Assembly (NCBI GenBank): GCA_945864145.1
Contig: CAMBAN010000006.1
Coordinates: 1 to 51,177, forward strand
Direction: 5' to 3'
Length of the DNA: 51,177 bases
Origin: an uncultured Lachnospiraceae bacterium
GTDB taxonomy: Bacteria > Bacillota > Clostridia > Lachnospirales > Lachnospiraceae
In this document: piece by piece, positions 3,298 to 11,104 of the stretch
How positions within the stretch are numbered: position 1 is the first letter of the stretch
Layout: each line of letters opens with the position of its first letter
Notes under the pieces: generated by a model
What the model was told of the DNA's origin: nothing
Databases searched by the model: none
What the model saw: only the letters and a program-made list of their open reading frames with translations
Made by a program: the position numbers and the translations under genes

Positions 3298-4416
3298 TTA
3301 TAATACATATCTCTCATTCTTCTCTACCACTATTTTAATTTCATCGTTTCCGACGTAGTAGGAGTTTGCACGAATGGTATCACGGCTTTCGACAATACAG
3401 TTTTCAATGTGGGTGTTATCGCCAAGATACACATCATTTAAAATGATGGAGTTTTTAATGTAGCAGTTATTGCCTACAAATACCTGCTTGAACAGAATAG
3501 AATTCTCTACTGTACCATTTATGATACATCCACTGGAAATCAAGCTGTTCTTTATATGTGAACCTGGATTATATTTCGCAGGTGGCAGGTCATCAACCTT
3601 AGAGTAAATATCCGGATACGTTTTAAAGAAATAATTGCGAATCTCCGGTTTCAGGAAATCCATATTTGTTGCAAAATAATCTTCTACCGAAGCAATATTT
3701 CTCCAATAATTTTCAATTTTATATCCAAAAATTCTCTTTACATCTTTGTAACGGATGAGGATATCCTGAACAAAATCATATCTTCCTTCTTCCGCACACT
3801 GTTCCAACAGTTCAATCAACTGTCTTCTTCTGATTACGTAAATACCACAGGACACTGTGTGAGATTTCGCAATCACCGGTTTTTCTTCAAATTCTTCAAT
3901 ACGGCAATCCTCATTCATCTTAACGGTTCCGTATCTGCCCATATCTGTTTCTAAAGGCATATCCTTTACTACAACAGTAATATCAGCCTTTTTAGCGATA
4001 TGATACTCAAGTACTTTATTATAATCCATTTTGTAGATGCAATCCCCCGTTGCAATAACTACATATGGTTCATGACTTCTTTTCAAGAATAAAATATTCT
4101 GATACAGACAATCTGCGGTACCTCTGTACCAATTGCTGTTTTCCGGCGTTACAGTCGGTGTAAACACATATAAACCACCTTGCTTACGACCAAAGTCCCA
4201 CCATTTTGATGAACTTAAATGTTCATTTAAGCTTCTTGCATTGTACTGCGTAATGACTGCAACCTTCTGAATATGAGAATTGGACATATTACTAAGTGCA
4301 AAATCGATACTTCTGTAGCTGCCTGCAATCGGCATTGCTGAAATCGCTCTCTTATGAGAAAGCTCCTTCATTCTTCTGTTATTTCCACCTGCTAAAATGA
4401 CTCCTATTGCTCTCAT
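3298..4416 (-). CDS. glgD: Glucose-1-phosphate adenylyltransferase subunit GlgD
   Basis: This is the second, GlgC-like subunit of the ADP-glucose pyrophosphorylase found in Firmicutes, used for glycogen synthesis. The N-terminus keeps the nucleotidyltransferase start VILAGGNNRRMKEL but deviates from the GGQGSRL loop of GlgC. The middle carries WYRGTADCLYQN and the C-terminal part is a left-handed beta-helix of hexapeptide type (INGTVENSILFKQVFVG). In Bacillus GlgD boosts activity of GlgC rather than being active alone. The ATG at 4416 was preferred over the one at 4422 because AGGTGA lies about seven bases upstream. The glgC stop is two bases before this start, so translation is coupled. Confidence 0.93.
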   Translation of the reverse strand: MRAIGVILAGGNNRRMKELSHKRAISAMPIAGSYRSIDFALSNMSNSHIQKVAVITQYNARSLNEHLSSSKWWDFGRKQGGLYVFTPTVTPENSNWYRGTADCLYQNILFLKRSHEPYVVIATGDCIYKMDYNKVLEYHIAKKADITVVVKDMPLETDMGRYGTVKMNEDCRIEEFEEKPVIAKSHTVSCGIYVIRRRQLIELLEQCAEEGRYDFVQDILIRYKDVKRIFGYKIENYWRNIASVEDYFATNMDFLKPEIRNYFFKTYPDIYSKVDDLPPAKYNPGSHIKNSLISSGCIINGTVENSILFKQVFVGNNCYIKNSIILNDVYLGDNTHIENCIVESRDTIRANSYYVGNDEIKIVVEKNERYVL

Positions 4417-6057: not shown

Positions 6058-7437
6058 ATGTATCATATTGATTTTAAAAATCCTATCCACGTACACTTTA
6101 TGGGCATTGGCGGCATCAGCATGAGTGGTCTTGCAGAGATTTTGTTAGACGCTGGTTTTACAGTCAGTGGTTCTGATGCCAGGAAATCACCATTGACAGA
6201 ACATTTAGAAAATTTAGGTGCAACTGTTTTTTATGGTCAGTGCAAAGAAAACATCATTGACGGCATTGATCTCGTTGTCTATACCGCAGCAATTTCCAAA
6301 GATAATCCTGAATATGTGGAAGCCATGGCACAGGGAATTCCTATGATGCCTCGAGCAGATTTACTTGGACAGATTATGAAAAACTATAAAATGCCTATTG
6401 CCATCAGCGGTACCCACGGTAAGACTACTACTACTTCTATGATTTCAGAAATTTTACTTGCAGCAGATACTGATCCGACCTTATCTATCGGTGGTATCCT
6501 GAAATCGATTGGCGGAAATATCCGTGTAGGTGGTCCTGACTATTTTGTTACAGAAGCCTGTGAGTATACTAACTCTTTCTTAAGCTTCTTTCCCAAAATC
6601 AGTATCATTTTAAATGTAGAAGAGGATCATCTTGATTTCTTCAAAGACATCAACGATATCCGTAATTCCTTCCATACCTTTGGTAAGCTTCTTCCATCGG
6701 ATGGCTGCTTAATTATCAACGGAGATATTGACAAGCTGCCGGAGCTTACAGCTGATTTAGCCTGTAAAGTCGTTACCTTTGGTAAAAATGCTTCCTATGA
6801 TTACAGTTATACAGATTTGACCTTTGATGAACTCGGCCGTGCTACCTATACTTTATTAAAGAAGGGTATTGCAAGCGGTACTGTTTCTCTTGGTGTCGTA
6901 GGTGAGCATAATGTGATAAATTCCTTATCTGTTCTTGCACTGATGGATATTTTAGGTATTGACTCTGACATTGTCAAAAAGTCTTTAACAGATTTTCATG
7001 GTACAGACAGACGTTTTGAATATAAGGGCTGTGTGGACGGCGTAACTATTTTAGATGACTATGCGCATCACCCGACAGAAATTGCTGCGACCTTAACTGC
7101 TGCTGCAAATTATCCACATAAAAATATCTGGTGCGTGTTCCAGCCACACACCTATACAAGAACAAAGGCCTTTTTAAAGGATTTTGCGGTTGCTTTATCA
7201 AAAGCAGATAAGATTGTTTTGGCAGACATTTATGCTGCCAGAGAGAAAAACACCATTGGTATTTCCTCAAAGGATTTACTTGCTGAGCTCCAGAAACTAG
7301 GTAAGGAATGCTACTATTTCCCTACTTTTGATGAAATCGAAAAATTTTTATTAAAAAATTGTATCAACGGAGATTTGTTGATAACTATGGGAGCCGGAGA
7401 TGTTGTAAAAATCGGCGAAAATCTACTTGGACAATAA
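6058..7437 (+). CDS. murC: UDP-N-acetylmuramate--L-alanine ligase
   Basis: MurC joins L-alanine to UDP-MurNAc with ATP, the first amino-acid addition in peptidoglycan precursor synthesis, in the cytoplasm. The 459-residue protein has the three Mur ligase domains: the N-terminal UDP-binding loop HFMGIGGISMSG (about residues 13-24), the central ATP-binding GTHGKTTTT (118-126), and the C-terminal domain with DDYAHHPTEI. Length is normal for the family. The start follows CGGAGG. It is a lone murC, divergent from glgC. The DnaA-box region starts one base after its stop codon, and no terminator is seen between murC and the dnaD operon. Confidence 0.97.
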   Translation: MYHIDFKNPIHVHFMGIGGISMSGLAEILLDAGFTVSGSDARKSPLTEHLENLGATVFYGQCKENIIDGIDLVVYTAAISKDNPEYVEAMAQGIPMMPRADLLGQIMKNYKMPIAISGTHGKTTTTSMISEILLAADTDPTLSIGGILKSIGGNIRVGGPDYFVTEACEYTNSFLSFFPKISIILNVEEDHLDFFKDINDIRNSFHTFGKLLPSDGCLIINGDIDKLPELTADLACKVVTFGKNASYDYSYTDLTFDELGRATYTLLKKGIASGTVSLGVVGEHNVINSLSVLALMDILGIDSDIVKKSLTDFHGTDRRFEYKGCVDGVTILDDYAHHPTEIAATLTAAANYPHKNIWCVFQPHTYTRTKAFLKDFAVALSKADKIVLADIYAAREKNTIGISSKDLLAELQKLGKECYYFPTFDEIEKFLLKNCINGDLLITMGAGDVVKIGENLLGQ

Positions 7438-7455
7438 TTATCCACATTATCCACA
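7438..7455 (+). promoter_or_regulatory. DnaA-box pair (two perfect boxes in tandem)
   Basis: TTATCCACA occurs at 7438-7446 and again at 7447-7455, head to tail with no spacer, directly after the murC stop codon. This 9-mer is the consensus high-affinity DnaA box. Weaker matches lie nearby at 7486-7494 (opposite strand, one mismatch) and 7504-7512. Confidence 0.85.
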
Positions 7456-7580
7456 TTTTTGGAGGGAAAAATCCACTTTCAGAAATGTGGATATTTTTGT
7501 ATGAAATCCACATTTTGCATTTTTTCAAACACTTCCTGCAAAAGCCCTTTTTTCAAGGCTACAGCGATTACCTTTTTTCT

Positions 7581-7607
7581 TTATCCACATTATCCACATT
7601 ATCCACA
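7581..7607 (+). promoter_or_regulatory. DnaA-box triplet (three perfect boxes in tandem)
   Basis: TTATCCACA is repeated at 7581-7589, 7590-7598 and 7599-7607, a precise 9-bp direct repeat. It sits about 50 bp upstream of the likely dnaD promoter. Together with the pair at 7438-7455 it makes a cluster of five perfect DnaA boxes in 170 bp. DnaA control of the downstream primosome operon, or titration of DnaA, is the natural reading. Confidence 0.85.
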
Positions 7608-7654
7608 AGTGCCTCAAACCCAGTGTTTTCAAGGCTTTCAGGGTTTTCCACCTA

Positions 7655-7682
7655 TTGCTTTTTTCCAACTTTGTGTTACAAT
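7655..7682 (+). promoter_or_regulatory. Candidate promoter of dnaD operon
   Basis: TTGCTT (7655-7660) and TACAAT (7677-7682) are spaced by 16 bases, placing the start near 7689, about 28 bases before the dnaD ATG. The -35 match is weak, as expected for a promoter that may depend on an activator. Confidence 0.4.
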
Positions 7683-7716
7683 ACAGTTACTTTTAGATAA
7701 CAAGGACGGGGACACT

Positions 7717-8904
7717 ATGAATCGTATAAACATCTATCGTAATACACATAAGGAACAGACTGCAATTTCCAATTATTTTATTGATGAATTTATGCAGGAT
7801 GCAAACGATGCACAGTTAAAAATCTATCTTTTTCTTATTCGCATGATGAGCGCTAATCTCCCAACCAGCGTGACTGACATTGCGGATAAATTCAATTACA
7901 CAGAGAAGGATGTGCTTCGTGCTTTGATGTATTGGGAATCCAGACAGCTTTTAAGCCTGGAATATGATGCAGCGCATAATTTATCCGGTATTCAGGTCCT
8001 TTCCTTAGACAACCCTTATGAGTTGCAGCAGGCTACTGCACCTCGCATTACACCGGTACTTTCCTTTATCAGACCAGCTTCTGCTTTGACAGGCGTAAGC
8101 CCTGACAGAGGCACAGGCATGACTGCTCCCTCAGCTATGCCTGTTGGTAACGGTATGAGCATGAACAGTCAGCCCATGCGCACAAGCTATCCGGTGACTT
8201 CCTCCGTTACAGAATACCCTGTACAGGAATGTACCTATGAAAAGCCAAACTACAGCATGGATGACATTAAGATTTTTAAGAATAACGAAGAAGCACAACA
8301 AATTCTTTTCGTCACAGAGCAGTACATAGGCAGACAGCTTACTCGTTCCGATATGGAAACGATTCTTTTCCTATATGACCAATTAGGCTTCTCTGCTGAC
8401 TTGATTGACTATCTGGTACAGCATTGTGTAGAACGTGGCAAAAAGGATTTCCGATACATTGAAAAGGTTGCTATTTCCTGGGCTGAGCAAGGTATTACTA
8501 CTGCAAAGCAGGCACAAATGCTTTCCAAAAAGTATGACAAAAATGTCTATACTATCATGAAAGCACTTGGTAAAAATACTGCTCCGGCGCCAAAAGAGCT
8601 CGAGTACATCAATAAGTGGACAAATGAATACGGTTTCTTATTAGATGTCATTCAGGAAGCATGTGATAAGACTGTCATGACTACAGATACCCATCGCTTT
8701 GCTTACGCAGACGGCATTTTAAGCAAATGGTATCGTGCAGGCGTTCATCATAAGTCTGATATTGCCGCAGTAGACGCTTCCTTCCAGCAATCAAATGCAG
8801 CCTACCGCAACCAGAAGACGCAGGGTGCCAATAACAAATTTAACCAGTTTTCTCAGAATTCTTATGATTTTGCACAATTAGAAGAAAACATTTTAAGCAA
8901 TTAG
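7717..8904 (+). CDS. dnaD: DnaD-domain replication initiation (primosome) protein
   Basis: A 395-residue DnaD/DnaB-like protein. The N-terminal part (to about residue 100) is a predicted winged helix (LPTSVTDIADKFNYTEKDVL). After a Met/Pro/Thr-rich linker (about 110-175) come two DnaD C-terminal-type domains, the last ending in YADGILSKWYRAGVHHKSD, which fits the characteristic YxxxIxxxW motif. These proteins act between DnaA at the origin and loading of the replicative helicase. The ATG at 7717 follows AGGACGGGG; the open frame extends upstream through the DnaA boxes but lacks signals. The helicase-loader gene begins 15 bp downstream. The C-terminal 13 residues (YDFAQLEENILSN) echo the Rep_3 protein's end. 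Confidence 0.88.
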   Translation: MNRINIYRNTHKEQTAISNYFIDEFMQDANDAQLKIYLFLIRMMSANLPTSVTDIADKFNYTEKDVLRALMYWESRQLLSLEYDAAHNLSGIQVLSLDNPYELQQATAPRITPVLSFIRPASALTGVSPDRGTGMTAPSAMPVGNGMSMNSQPMRTSYPVTSSVTEYPVQECTYEKPNYSMDDIKIFKNNEEAQQILFVTEQYIGRQLTRSDMETILFLYDQLGFSADLIDYLVQHCVERGKKDFRYIEKVAISWAEQGITTAKQAQMLSKKYDKNVYTIMKALGKNTAPAPKELEYINKWTNEYGFLLDVIQEACDKTVMTTDTHRFAYADGILSKWYRAGVHHKSDIAAVDASFQQSNAAYRNQKTQGANNKFNQFSQNSYDFAQLEENILSN

Positions 8905-8919: not shown

Positions 8920-9891
8920 ATGCCACTAAATAACAGTCAGTATAATGCAATTATCCGCTCTTACGAGGAAAAACAACGTAAATCAAGACATGCCTTAGAG
9001 GCAAATACGGAGCGAGTTTATCAAACCATTCCCGGCTTTGAAGAACTGGACAAACAGGTATCTGCTATCTCTATCGCTCATGGTCGCAGGCTCTTAAATG
9101 GTGACGACCATGCGCTTGAAGATTTGAAAATAAGCCTTAAGGAAATCGCAGTAAAGAAAGCGGCATTGCTTTCTGACTATGGTTTCCCTAAGGATTTTTT
9201 AGAGCCTGTTTATGAGTGTCCACTCTGCAAAGATACCGGCTACATAGGAAACCGTAAGTGCAATTGCTTCAGGAATGCTGAAATTGAACTTATCTACGAA
9301 CAATCCAACATTAAAAATCTACTAAAATCTGACAACTTCGACCATTTATCTTATGAGTATTATGACGGAGAAGACCTTACCCGCTTTCAAAAAGCTGTTC
9401 AAGAGTGCCAAAATTTCATTAAAACCTTTAATTCGGACTACCGCAATTTATTTTTTTATGGTACAGTAGGTACTGGTAAATCGTTTCTGTCCTGCTGTGT
9501 GGCAAGAGAACTGATAAATGCCGGAAAGCTTGTCATTTATTTTAGTTCTTCTCAGCTTTTTGAAGTTTTATCCAAATACACTTTTGACAAAGACAGTAAG
9601 GAAGCCACATCAGGCATTTATGAGGACATTTATGAATGTGATTTACTTATCATCGATGATTTGGGAACAGAACTCACAAATGCTTTTGTATCATCGCAGT
9701 TGTTTGCCTGCCTCAACAACAGACATCTTCGGAAAAAGGCAACGATTATTACAACGAATCTTTCCTTAGAGGAACTGCGTGACAAATACTCAGACAGAAT
9801 TTTTTCCCGTATCACCAGTAATTATGAGATGTATAAGCTCACCGGAAAAGATATCCGGATTACCAAGAAATTATTGTTGAACAGAAAGTGA
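8920..9891 (+). CDS. dnaI: DnaI/DnaC-like AAA+ replicative helicase loader
   Basis: This 323-residue AAA+ ATPase has the DnaI arrangement: an N-terminal helical region, a zinc-binding segment with CPLC (100-103) and CNC (114-116), and a C-terminal ATPase domain with Walker A GTVGTGKS (181-188) and Walker B LLIIDDLGTE (near 240). It would hold the replicative helicase open and deposit it on DNA at origins or stalled forks, with DnaD as partner. The gene lies 15 bp after dnaD with an AAGGAG ribosome-binding site and 10 bp before prs. It might be annotated as DnaC or ATP-binding protein; the loader role is strongly suggested by its neighbour. Confidence 0.9.
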   Translation: MPLNNSQYNAIIRSYEEKQRKSRHALEANTERVYQTIPGFEELDKQVSAISIAHGRRLLNGDDHALEDLKISLKEIAVKKAALLSDYGFPKDFLEPVYECPLCKDTGYIGNRKCNCFRNAEIELIYEQSNIKNLLKSDNFDHLSYEYYDGEDLTRFQKAVQECQNFIKTFNSDYRNLFFYGTVGTGKSFLSCCVARELINAGKLVIYFSSSQLFEVLSKYTFDKDSKEATSGIYEDIYECDLLIIDDLGTELTNAFVSSQLFACLNNRHLRKKATIITTNLSLEELRDKYSDRIFSRITSNYEMYKLTGKDIRITKKLLLNRK

Positions 9892-9901
9892 GGATTTCGC
9901 A

Positions 9902-11104
9902 ATGCCAGTTCGCGAAGAAAAAAGAAATCTTAATTCGATACCCGTTGGTTCCTTAGGTGTCATTCCTTTGGAAGGTTGTAAATCTCTTGGAGAAAAGGTA
10001 GATAATTACCTTGTAAAATGGAGAGCAGAACGTGAGAGTGAGCATAAAAACAGTCTTGCATTCTCAGGCTATCAGCGTGATTCTTACATCTTAAAGACAA
10101 AAGTGCCTCGTTTTGGTACAGGTGAAGCAAAAGGTGTTATTTTAGAATCTGTACGTGGCGATGACTTATATATTTTAGTAGATGTTGCAAACTACAGCTT
10201 AACTTATTCTCTTTGCGGACATGAAAATCATATGTCTCCGGATGATCATTATCAGGATTTAAAGAGAATTATCGCTGCTGTTGGTGGTAAGGCCAGAAGA
10301 ATTACCGTTATTATGCCTTATTTATATGAAAGCCGTCAGCATAAGAGAACTACCCGTGAGTCTTTAGACTGTGCTCTTGCATTACAGGAGTTGGTAAAGA
10401 TGGGCGTTGACAATATCATTACCTTCGACGCACATGACCCACGTGTACAGAATGCCATTCCTTTGAACGGCTTTGAAACAGTTTCTCCTACTTATCAGTT
10501 CATTAAGGGCCTCTTAAATCATGTACCTGATTTGACCATTGACTCTGACCATATGATGGTAATCAGCCCTGACGAAGGCGGTATGAGTCGTGCTATTTAC
10601 ATGGCAAACGTACTTGGTCTTGATATGGGTATGTTCTATAAGAGACGTGACTATACAAAGGTAGTTGACGGACGTAATCCTATCGTTGCTCATGAGTTCC
10701 TTGGCAGTGATGTAGAAGGTAAGGATATGTTAATTATCGACGACATGATTTCTTCCGGTGAAAGCGTATTAGAAGTTGCTGCCGCTTTAAAGGCAAGAAA
10801 AGCCGGCAGAATTTTCGTAGCTGCTACTTTTGGTCTTTTCACAGGTGGTTTAGCTGCTTTCGATAAGGCTTATGAAGAAGGTTTAATCGACAAGGTACTT
10901 ACCACAAACTTAATTTACCAGATGCCTGAATTACTGGAAAAACCATATTATATCAGTTGTGACATGAGTAAGTATATCGCTTACATCATTGATACTTTAA
11001 ATCACGATTCTTCTATCAGTGATTTATTAAATCCAAATGACAGAATTAACAGCATTTTGGAAAGATACAGAAACAAAGAATTAGATTGTCAGAAAAATAT
11101 GTAA
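9902..11104 (+). CDS. prs: Ribose-phosphate pyrophosphokinase
   Basis: The enzyme makes PRPP from ribose-5-phosphate and ATP for nucleotide, His, Trp and NAD synthesis. The 400-residue product is longer than the usual 310-320 and has an extended N-terminus. The core shows the binding-region FDAHDPRVQNAIPL and the PRPP loop MLIIDDMISSGES (about residues 277-289). The catalytic flexible loop region (YKRRDYTKV) is present. It is the third gene of the dnaD-dnaI-prs unit and is followed at once by a strong terminator. The pairing of PRPP supply with helicase loading may couple nucleotide precursor supply to replication, an inference from the operon only. Confidence 0.92.
   Translation: MPVREEKRNLNSIPVGSLGVIPLEGCKSLGEKVDNYLVKWRAERESEHKNSLAFSGYQRDSYILKTKVPRFGTGEAKGVILESVRGDDLYILVDVANYSLTYSLCGHENHMSPDDHYQDLKRIIAAVGGKARRITVIMPYLYESRQHKRTTRESLDCALALQELVKMGVDNIITFDAHDPRVQNAIPLNGFETVSPTYQFIKGLLNHVPDLTIDSDHMMVISPDEGGMSRAIYMANVLGLDMGMFYKRRDYTKVVDGRNPIVAHEFLGSDVEGKDMLIIDDMISSGESVLEVAAALKARKAGRIFVAATFGLFTGGLAAFDKAYEEGLIDKVLTTNLIYQMPELLEKPYYISCDMSKYIAYIIDTLNHDSSISDLLNPNDRINSILERYRNKELDCQKNM

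Follow-up and report, generated by a model that had tools for sequence, protein, structure and literature searches.

A spacer-free DnaA-box array between murC and dnaD in Lachnospiraceae, helically phased to the predicted dnaD promoter

A pair and a triple of head-to-tail DnaA boxes lie between murC and dnaD in a 51,177-nucleotide stretch of a contig from an uncultured Lachnospiraceae bacterium (hereafter the window). The array is conserved at this locus in the genus and in most of the family loci sampled, and it holds a constant helical phase to the predicted dnaD promoter. From comparison of these sequences, the element is probably a control region through which DnaA acts on the dnaD-dnaI(-prs) operon, with activation likelier than repression. 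If so, the amount of helicase loader would be governed by the initiator itself across a large gut-bacterial family, by means of a compact phased circuit. In the open-licence literature we found no earlier report of a phased DnaA array before dnaD: by title and abstract, no paper dealt with a DnaA-box array upstream of dnaD, and there was none on DnaA boxes together with hibernation promoting factor (hpf), or on murC-dnaD in Lachnospiraceae; a paper that did combine DnaA boxes with Lachnospiraceae was, judging by title and abstract, on another subject.

Layout and conservation of the element

The sequence-only reading had described five perfect boxes on a 9-bp pitch, as a pair and a triple, ahead of the primosome genes. 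A scan of the window bore this out to the base, with exact copies of TTATCCACA starting at 7438, 7447, 7581, 7590 and 7599, all five on the + strand. The element has two modules between murC and dnaD, the pair right after the murC stop and the triple before the predicted dnaD promoter. The features are as follows.

6058..7437, + strand: murC (TIGR01082 murC equivalog, above cut-off), found ahead of dnaD in 40 of 40 family loci
7438..7455, + strand: proximal module, a head-to-tail pair of DnaA boxes on a 9-bp pitch, beginning at the first base past the murC stop
7448..7500, + strand: RNA hairpin with U-tract, likely the intrinsic murC terminator (RNA fold)
7486..7494, - strand: inverted box ATATCCACA, one mismatch
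7581..7607, + strand: distal module, a head-to-tail triplet of DnaA boxes on a 9-bp pitch, its end 69 bases from the predicted -10
7655..7660, + strand: weak -35-like hexamer TTGCTT
7677..7682, + strand: predicted -10 TACAAT, with TG two bases ahead
7717..8904, + strand: dnaD-like primosome gene (PF07261, TIGR01446)
8920..9891, + strand: dnaI/dnaC-like helicase-loader ATPase gene (NF005304 above cut-off; IstB/DnaA-type AAA); its match to the DnaI model NF006505 is below that model's own cut-off
9902..11104, + strand: prs-like gene (NF005299 and TIGR01251, above cut-off)

A sixth exact copy of TTATCCACA lies at 7110, within murC. At up to one mismatch the count in the window rises to 30, where 100 shuffles average 16.8 and reach at most 27. 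No such box in the window overlaps the predicted -35 or -10. A promoter scan with a stricter threshold returned zero + strand promoters in 7300-7800.

The sequence-only reading had also suggested that the motif be counted across the genome, which is a draft (83% complete, 205 contigs) in which box counts are lower bounds. Exact TTATCCACA was found 57 times, five of these being the murC-dnaD boxes, and the reversed control pattern 24 times. Two sites have tandem pairs with the 9-bp pitch, murC-dnaD and upstream of hpf (C29:3078-3095). The oriC region ahead of dnaA has four perfect boxes and none at this pitch. In sequence the murC-dnaD boxes agree with the DnaA consensus, as well as with the perfect boxes at oriC in this genome, whose DnaA carries the DnaA helix-turn-helix domain PF08299. 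The array is a DnaA-box cluster outside oriC (array on contig C6, dnaA on contig C2); with dnaA not beside it, a second origin or identity with oriC was set aside.

The genus set comprised 38 genomes, 35 of them with a dnaD match, and the murC-dnaD region was read in 34; G006, which carries the dnaD end only, was left out. With up to one mismatch per 8-mer, a tandem run is present between murC and dnaD in 34/34 loci. The distal run is present in 32/34 at one mismatch and in the other two (L026 and L031) when two mismatches are allowed, and the proximal run in 33/34 at one mismatch, the exception being L029, whose region the script delimited differently. Exact tandem pairs occur in 32 of the 38 genomes, 93 pairs in total, whereas the reversed control gives 0 in 38. 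By our own count 60 of these pairs are at murC-dnaD, 27 belong to an hpf-type element (hpf was identified for 26, and one is at a contig end) and 6 are elsewhere, including dnaA and galE-like neighbours.

Spacer-free tandem boxes had been called unusual, and within the genus this holds: the 9-bp pitch separates 60 of 61 exact same-strand neighbours within 30 bp at murC-dnaD, compared to 1 of 13 close neighbours before dnaA (29 regions, 134 boxes). The double DnaA box of Escherichia coli is alike in being paired and in binding more than one DnaA, but the passages of PMC11317965 that treat it give a preferred gap of 2-3 bp, where the murC-dnaD array has 0 bp. The difference bears on how DnaA packs on DNA, and packing on these tandem arrays may, judging from the spacings, be different.

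The family set held 150 genomes, with an exact pair in 99, a DnaD match in 148 and an HPF match in 143. Among the matches listed there are 150 pair rows from 69 genomes, which the script assigned to dnaD (87), hpf (27) or neither (36); re-sorted partly by eye, these last 36 fell to murC-dnaD (4, one of them at a contig end), dnaA (10), an hpf-type composite (18) and elsewhere (4). We then sampled 40 dnaD loci from 40 genera, of which 35 represent roughly every fourth genome and 5 were picked for having no exact pair (G112 and G128 were excluded as they had no dnaD position, and G092, at a contig edge, was replaced by G094). A tandem 9-bp-pitch run is exact in 21/40 and present at one mismatch in 33/40 (28/35 and 5/5), with 7/40 lacking one at that threshold; 20 dinucleotide shuffles of the family loci gave 0. 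A chance cluster was set aside on the basis of these shuffles and those of the window.

Beyond the family, contigs of species genomes (84,980 species) were searched for three tandem boxes with any first base. At least 118 stretches carry an exact triple. Among the 118 matches listed, 91 adjoin murC and dnaD: 90 have the order murC-array-dnaD, and in one (L141) both genes are present with dnaD not downstream. The others have murC only within the available stretch (2), dnaA (2), hpf (1), dnaD only (1) or no query match (21). Titles in the dnaD group are mostly of Lachnospiraceae, or of a genus that we take to belong there. At the level of the order, 38 of 116 genomes have an exact pair, and in several other families two pairs stand at a distance of about 160 bp, which is the same layout as judged from pair positions.

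According to the sequence-only reading, a specific regulatory role would be unlikely if relatives kept dnaD without the array; with a tandem run retained before dnaD in 34/34 genus loci and 33/40 family loci, this comparison did not refute the role. Two features by which DnaA-regulated promoters are recognized are seen here: the boxes adjoin the dnaD promoter, which is predicted, and they are conserved together with dnaD, with the exception of L141.

Helical phasing to the predicted promoter

For every distal array, a simple score was used to predict the -10 that follows it, and the spacing between the two was measured in bases. The distances from the triple fall into classes of 49, about 59 and about 70 bases, which are one helical turn apart; the window has 69. 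Values (loci in brackets) for the family, available for 26/40 loci, are 49 (5), 58-59 (7), 68-71 (9), 77-79 (3), 94 and 222, and for the named loci, 59 of 62, they are 47-49 (14), 55-60 (22), 69-71 (21), 78 and 139. The main test dropped rows having no distal array, only two boxes, or a -10 beyond 90 bases. With at least three boxes and less than 90 bases, 17 family loci gave R 0.94, where 200 shuffles had a mean of 0.32 and did not exceed 0.60; for 58 named loci R was 0.82, with 0.33 as the highest null value. A finder given no bonus for a -35 or for TG returned R 0.94 (17/18 family loci) and 0.77 (56/59 named loci), and TG precedes the -10 in 17/18 family and 49/59 named loci when the finder has no TG bonus. 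A later test took 38 listed stretches that had not been used, of which 28 are murC-dnaD loci, a few from genomes already in the genus set; R was 0.81 at 10.5 bp, with values of 49-50 (7), 57-60 (5), 65 (1), 69-71 (14) and 79 (1).

In order to account for relatedness, the family, first named and genus loci were pooled (106 rows, some genomes occurring twice) and thinned by MurC identity. At 79, 51 and 32 rows, the last being under 68% MurC identity, the array-to--10 distance kept R values of 0.86, 0.84 and 0.80, which 0 of 3000 jitters reached in each case. The distance from pair to triple is phased as well (R 0.74, 0.74 and 0.70 in 67, 40 and 24 rows; jitter null 0/3000 at 24 rows), with a best period of 11.2-11.35 bp, nearer 11.3 than 10.5, so that looping is possible, though short of proven. 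In the thinned sets the distances from array to ATG and from -10 to ATG are unphased, being reached by 710 to 2651 of 3000 jitters. In the unthinned set these controls gave R 0.27 and 0.26, reached by 20 and 23 of 3000 jitters, a signal which we take as relatedness.

Members of a clade inherit their spacing. A quick MurC tree built from 92 rows calls for at least 11 changes between spacing classes; its well-supported branches alone force fewer, namely 2, 5 and 4 for classes 69, 59 and 49. By eye, a CTATTTTC-like block next to the -10 is common to many loci of all classes and the remainder of the spacer varies. A -35-like hexamer follows the end of the triple at 47 bases in 24 of 34 genus loci.

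As a separate observation, four of the 19 loci with 49-base spacing (L104, L148, L156 and L159) carry an exact inverted box TGTGGATA within 25 bases past the triple, and other loci of this class have near matches to it.

Proposed control by DnaA and alternative explanations

The phasing speaks for stereospecific action of DnaA on dnaD-dnaI, with activation as the likeliest mode, rather than for a site of titration alone. DnaA would bind the triple and contact RNA polymerase from one fixed face of the helix; from the downstream edge of the triple to the predicted transcription start there are about 62, 72 or 82 bp. The class I activator CRP has sites at -61.5, -71.5 and -82.5, which likewise step by helical turns upstream of the promoter; a triple edge near -62, -72 or -82 upstream of a weak -35, here known from predicted positions, looks like a class I-like arrangement. 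The proximal pair, phased to the triple, would probably assist by DnaA-DnaA contact over a short loop, while its second box would also terminate murC transcription. With the three genes presumably read as one operon, helicase-loader supply would then track the initiator. A wider and less likely version of this scheme can be offered tentatively: a stereospecific DnaA complex that reaches from the murC terminator as far as the dnaD promoter may work as a class I-like activator, by which the initiator may set its own loader supply, and through the sister hpf array ribosome hibernation may respond to that signal too, in much of Lachnospiraceae.

Control of replication genes by DnaA has precedents. 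In the portions of the review PMC8203912 available to us, Caulobacter dnaQ and dnaB (the helicase), which have predicted DnaA boxes, are placed in the DnaA regulon. Such promoters resemble the present one in having boxes near the promoter of a replication gene; here, by comparison, the boxes precede the dnaD/dnaI loader operon and are free of spacers, there are two phased modules, and the layout is widespread in the family. The main text of PMC4447404, on B. subtilis DnaA binding in vitro, does not contain dnaI or yvyD in the portion consulted, and its dnaD passages there do not concern a binding target.

The main rival of the same kind as activation is repression, in which DnaA would silence the operon through a loop between pair and triple. 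The mutual phasing of the two modules at a period of 11.2-11.35 bp agrees with it. However, the boxes in the window leave the predicted -35 and -10 free, the triple stands well clear of the -35-like hexamer in most genus loci, and the weak -35 fits an activated promoter; since a poor -35 together with an extended -10 makes activation likelier, we regard repression as rather doubtful.

The sequence-only reading had left the choice between a direct handle on the primosome genes and a titration site. The former is supported by the conserved runs and the promoter phasing, whereas a pure sink leaves that phasing unexplained. Were the array a site of DnaA titration or inactivation, like datA or the Bacillus clusters, its placement before dnaD would be incidental. 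Parallels exist: E. coli datA and DARS sites, like B. subtilis DBCs, are DnaA-box clusters outside oriC, and PMC5295017 reports, in the sections seen, that removal of six DBCs leads to early initiation and that datA needs IHF and promotes DnaA-ATP hydrolysis; promoter phasing of the DBCs goes unmentioned in those sections. Exact boxes are more numerous at murC-dnaD (five) than at oriC (four), a second conserved array exists at hpf, and dnaA lies about 153-666 kb from dnaD in five of the six genomes having both on one contig (3.3 Mb, measured along the contig, in the sixth, G139). L141, Hominisplanchenecus murintestinalis, also speaks for this explanation. Its murC and array are inverted between glgC and dnaD (L141:2788-7188), the exact pair and triple are retained after murC, the array faces glgC, whose start is some 330 bp away, and dnaD has no tandem pair ahead of it. 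Considering this inversion and the hpf-type arrays before other genes, some arrays may serve a purpose beyond the next promoter. Yet a transcription factor requires a fixed face relative to the promoter and a sink requires no rotational position with respect to the -10, and the phasing there is strong, with ATG distances unphased once the set is thinned. We therefore consider pure titration improbable for the murC-dnaD array and retain DnaA-responsive control of dnaD-dnaI as the preferred reading. Weighing against this reading are L141, the 7/40 family loci with no run at one mismatch, the clade-wise inheritance of spacings, and a dnaD promoter that is predicted and that the stricter scan does not list.

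It is very unlikely that a different protein with a DnaA-like consensus occupies the array; the pitch departs both from the E. coli gaps (PMC11317965, in the passages cited above) and from the local oriC, but the boxes are exact TTATCCACA in a genome whose own DnaA has the PF08299 domain.

The proximal pair does appear to have a further use. The hairpin at 7448..7500 folds at -23.2 kcal/mol (z -4.4 and -5.9), its left arm being the second proximal box and its right arm the inverted box at 7486..7494, and a U-tract follows, which is the make-up of an intrinsic terminator; a simple terminator scan restricted to loops of 3-8 omitted it. The proximal pair is found in 96 of 133 loci (some genomes counted twice), and in 47 of these an exact inverted partner lies no more than 60 bp away. 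In 46 of the 47 the nine bases past the inverted box hold at least five T. Flanking base pairs of the hairpin are present in 20/47, a weak covariation which was not counted as support. It is likely that the second proximal box doubles as a terminator arm, ending murC transcription. That the boxes are maintained solely for this is scarcely credible despite the strong hairpin and the T-rich run, given that the triple and the first proximal box sit beyond the hairpin, about half of the pair loci have the inverted partner and fewer than half of those the flanking pairing, and locus counts point to triples being retained without a hairpin.

The hpf-type array and further observations

Tandem boxes also recur ahead of hpf. 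In 40 family hpf loci an exact run lies within 700 bp upstream in 14/40 and a run at one mismatch in 24/40, against 0 in shuffles, and zero runs lie on the opposite strand in these 40 loci. An alignment of genus loci places the array about 200 bp before an hpf promoter-like site. The conserved element (L003:3025-3120, ahead of hpf at 3372; also L282-L309) has the order TTATCCACA, about 30 bp, TTATACAC, the tandem pair, about 50 bp, GTTTTGT, about 55 bp and TTGACA. GTTTTGT, which resembles what we take to be half a LexA box, is 49-52 bp past the pair in 21 of 32 loci, at 41 in one, at 29-30 (about two helical turns less) in two, and was not found in 8. The composite element also occurs before genes other than hpf, often after NlpC/P60-like genes. 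At Rfam gathering scores there were zero matches in the window and two tRNAs only in 20 hpf-type and related loci, and a known structured RNA was set aside on this result.

A third box group, made up of TATCCACATGTTTATGCACAATATCCACA and variants of it, precedes a galE-like gene found a few kb past dnaD on the opposite strand (L146:5139-5167); it is listed in several genus members, and its sequence was read in L146 only.

Finally, the window encodes a Rep_3-type replication initiator (406-1485, - strand) ending in DFAQFEQQILSN, which by eye is much like the DnaD end DFAQLEENILSN. From this likeness, the initiator may imitate the tail of DnaD and in this way attract partners for helicase loading.
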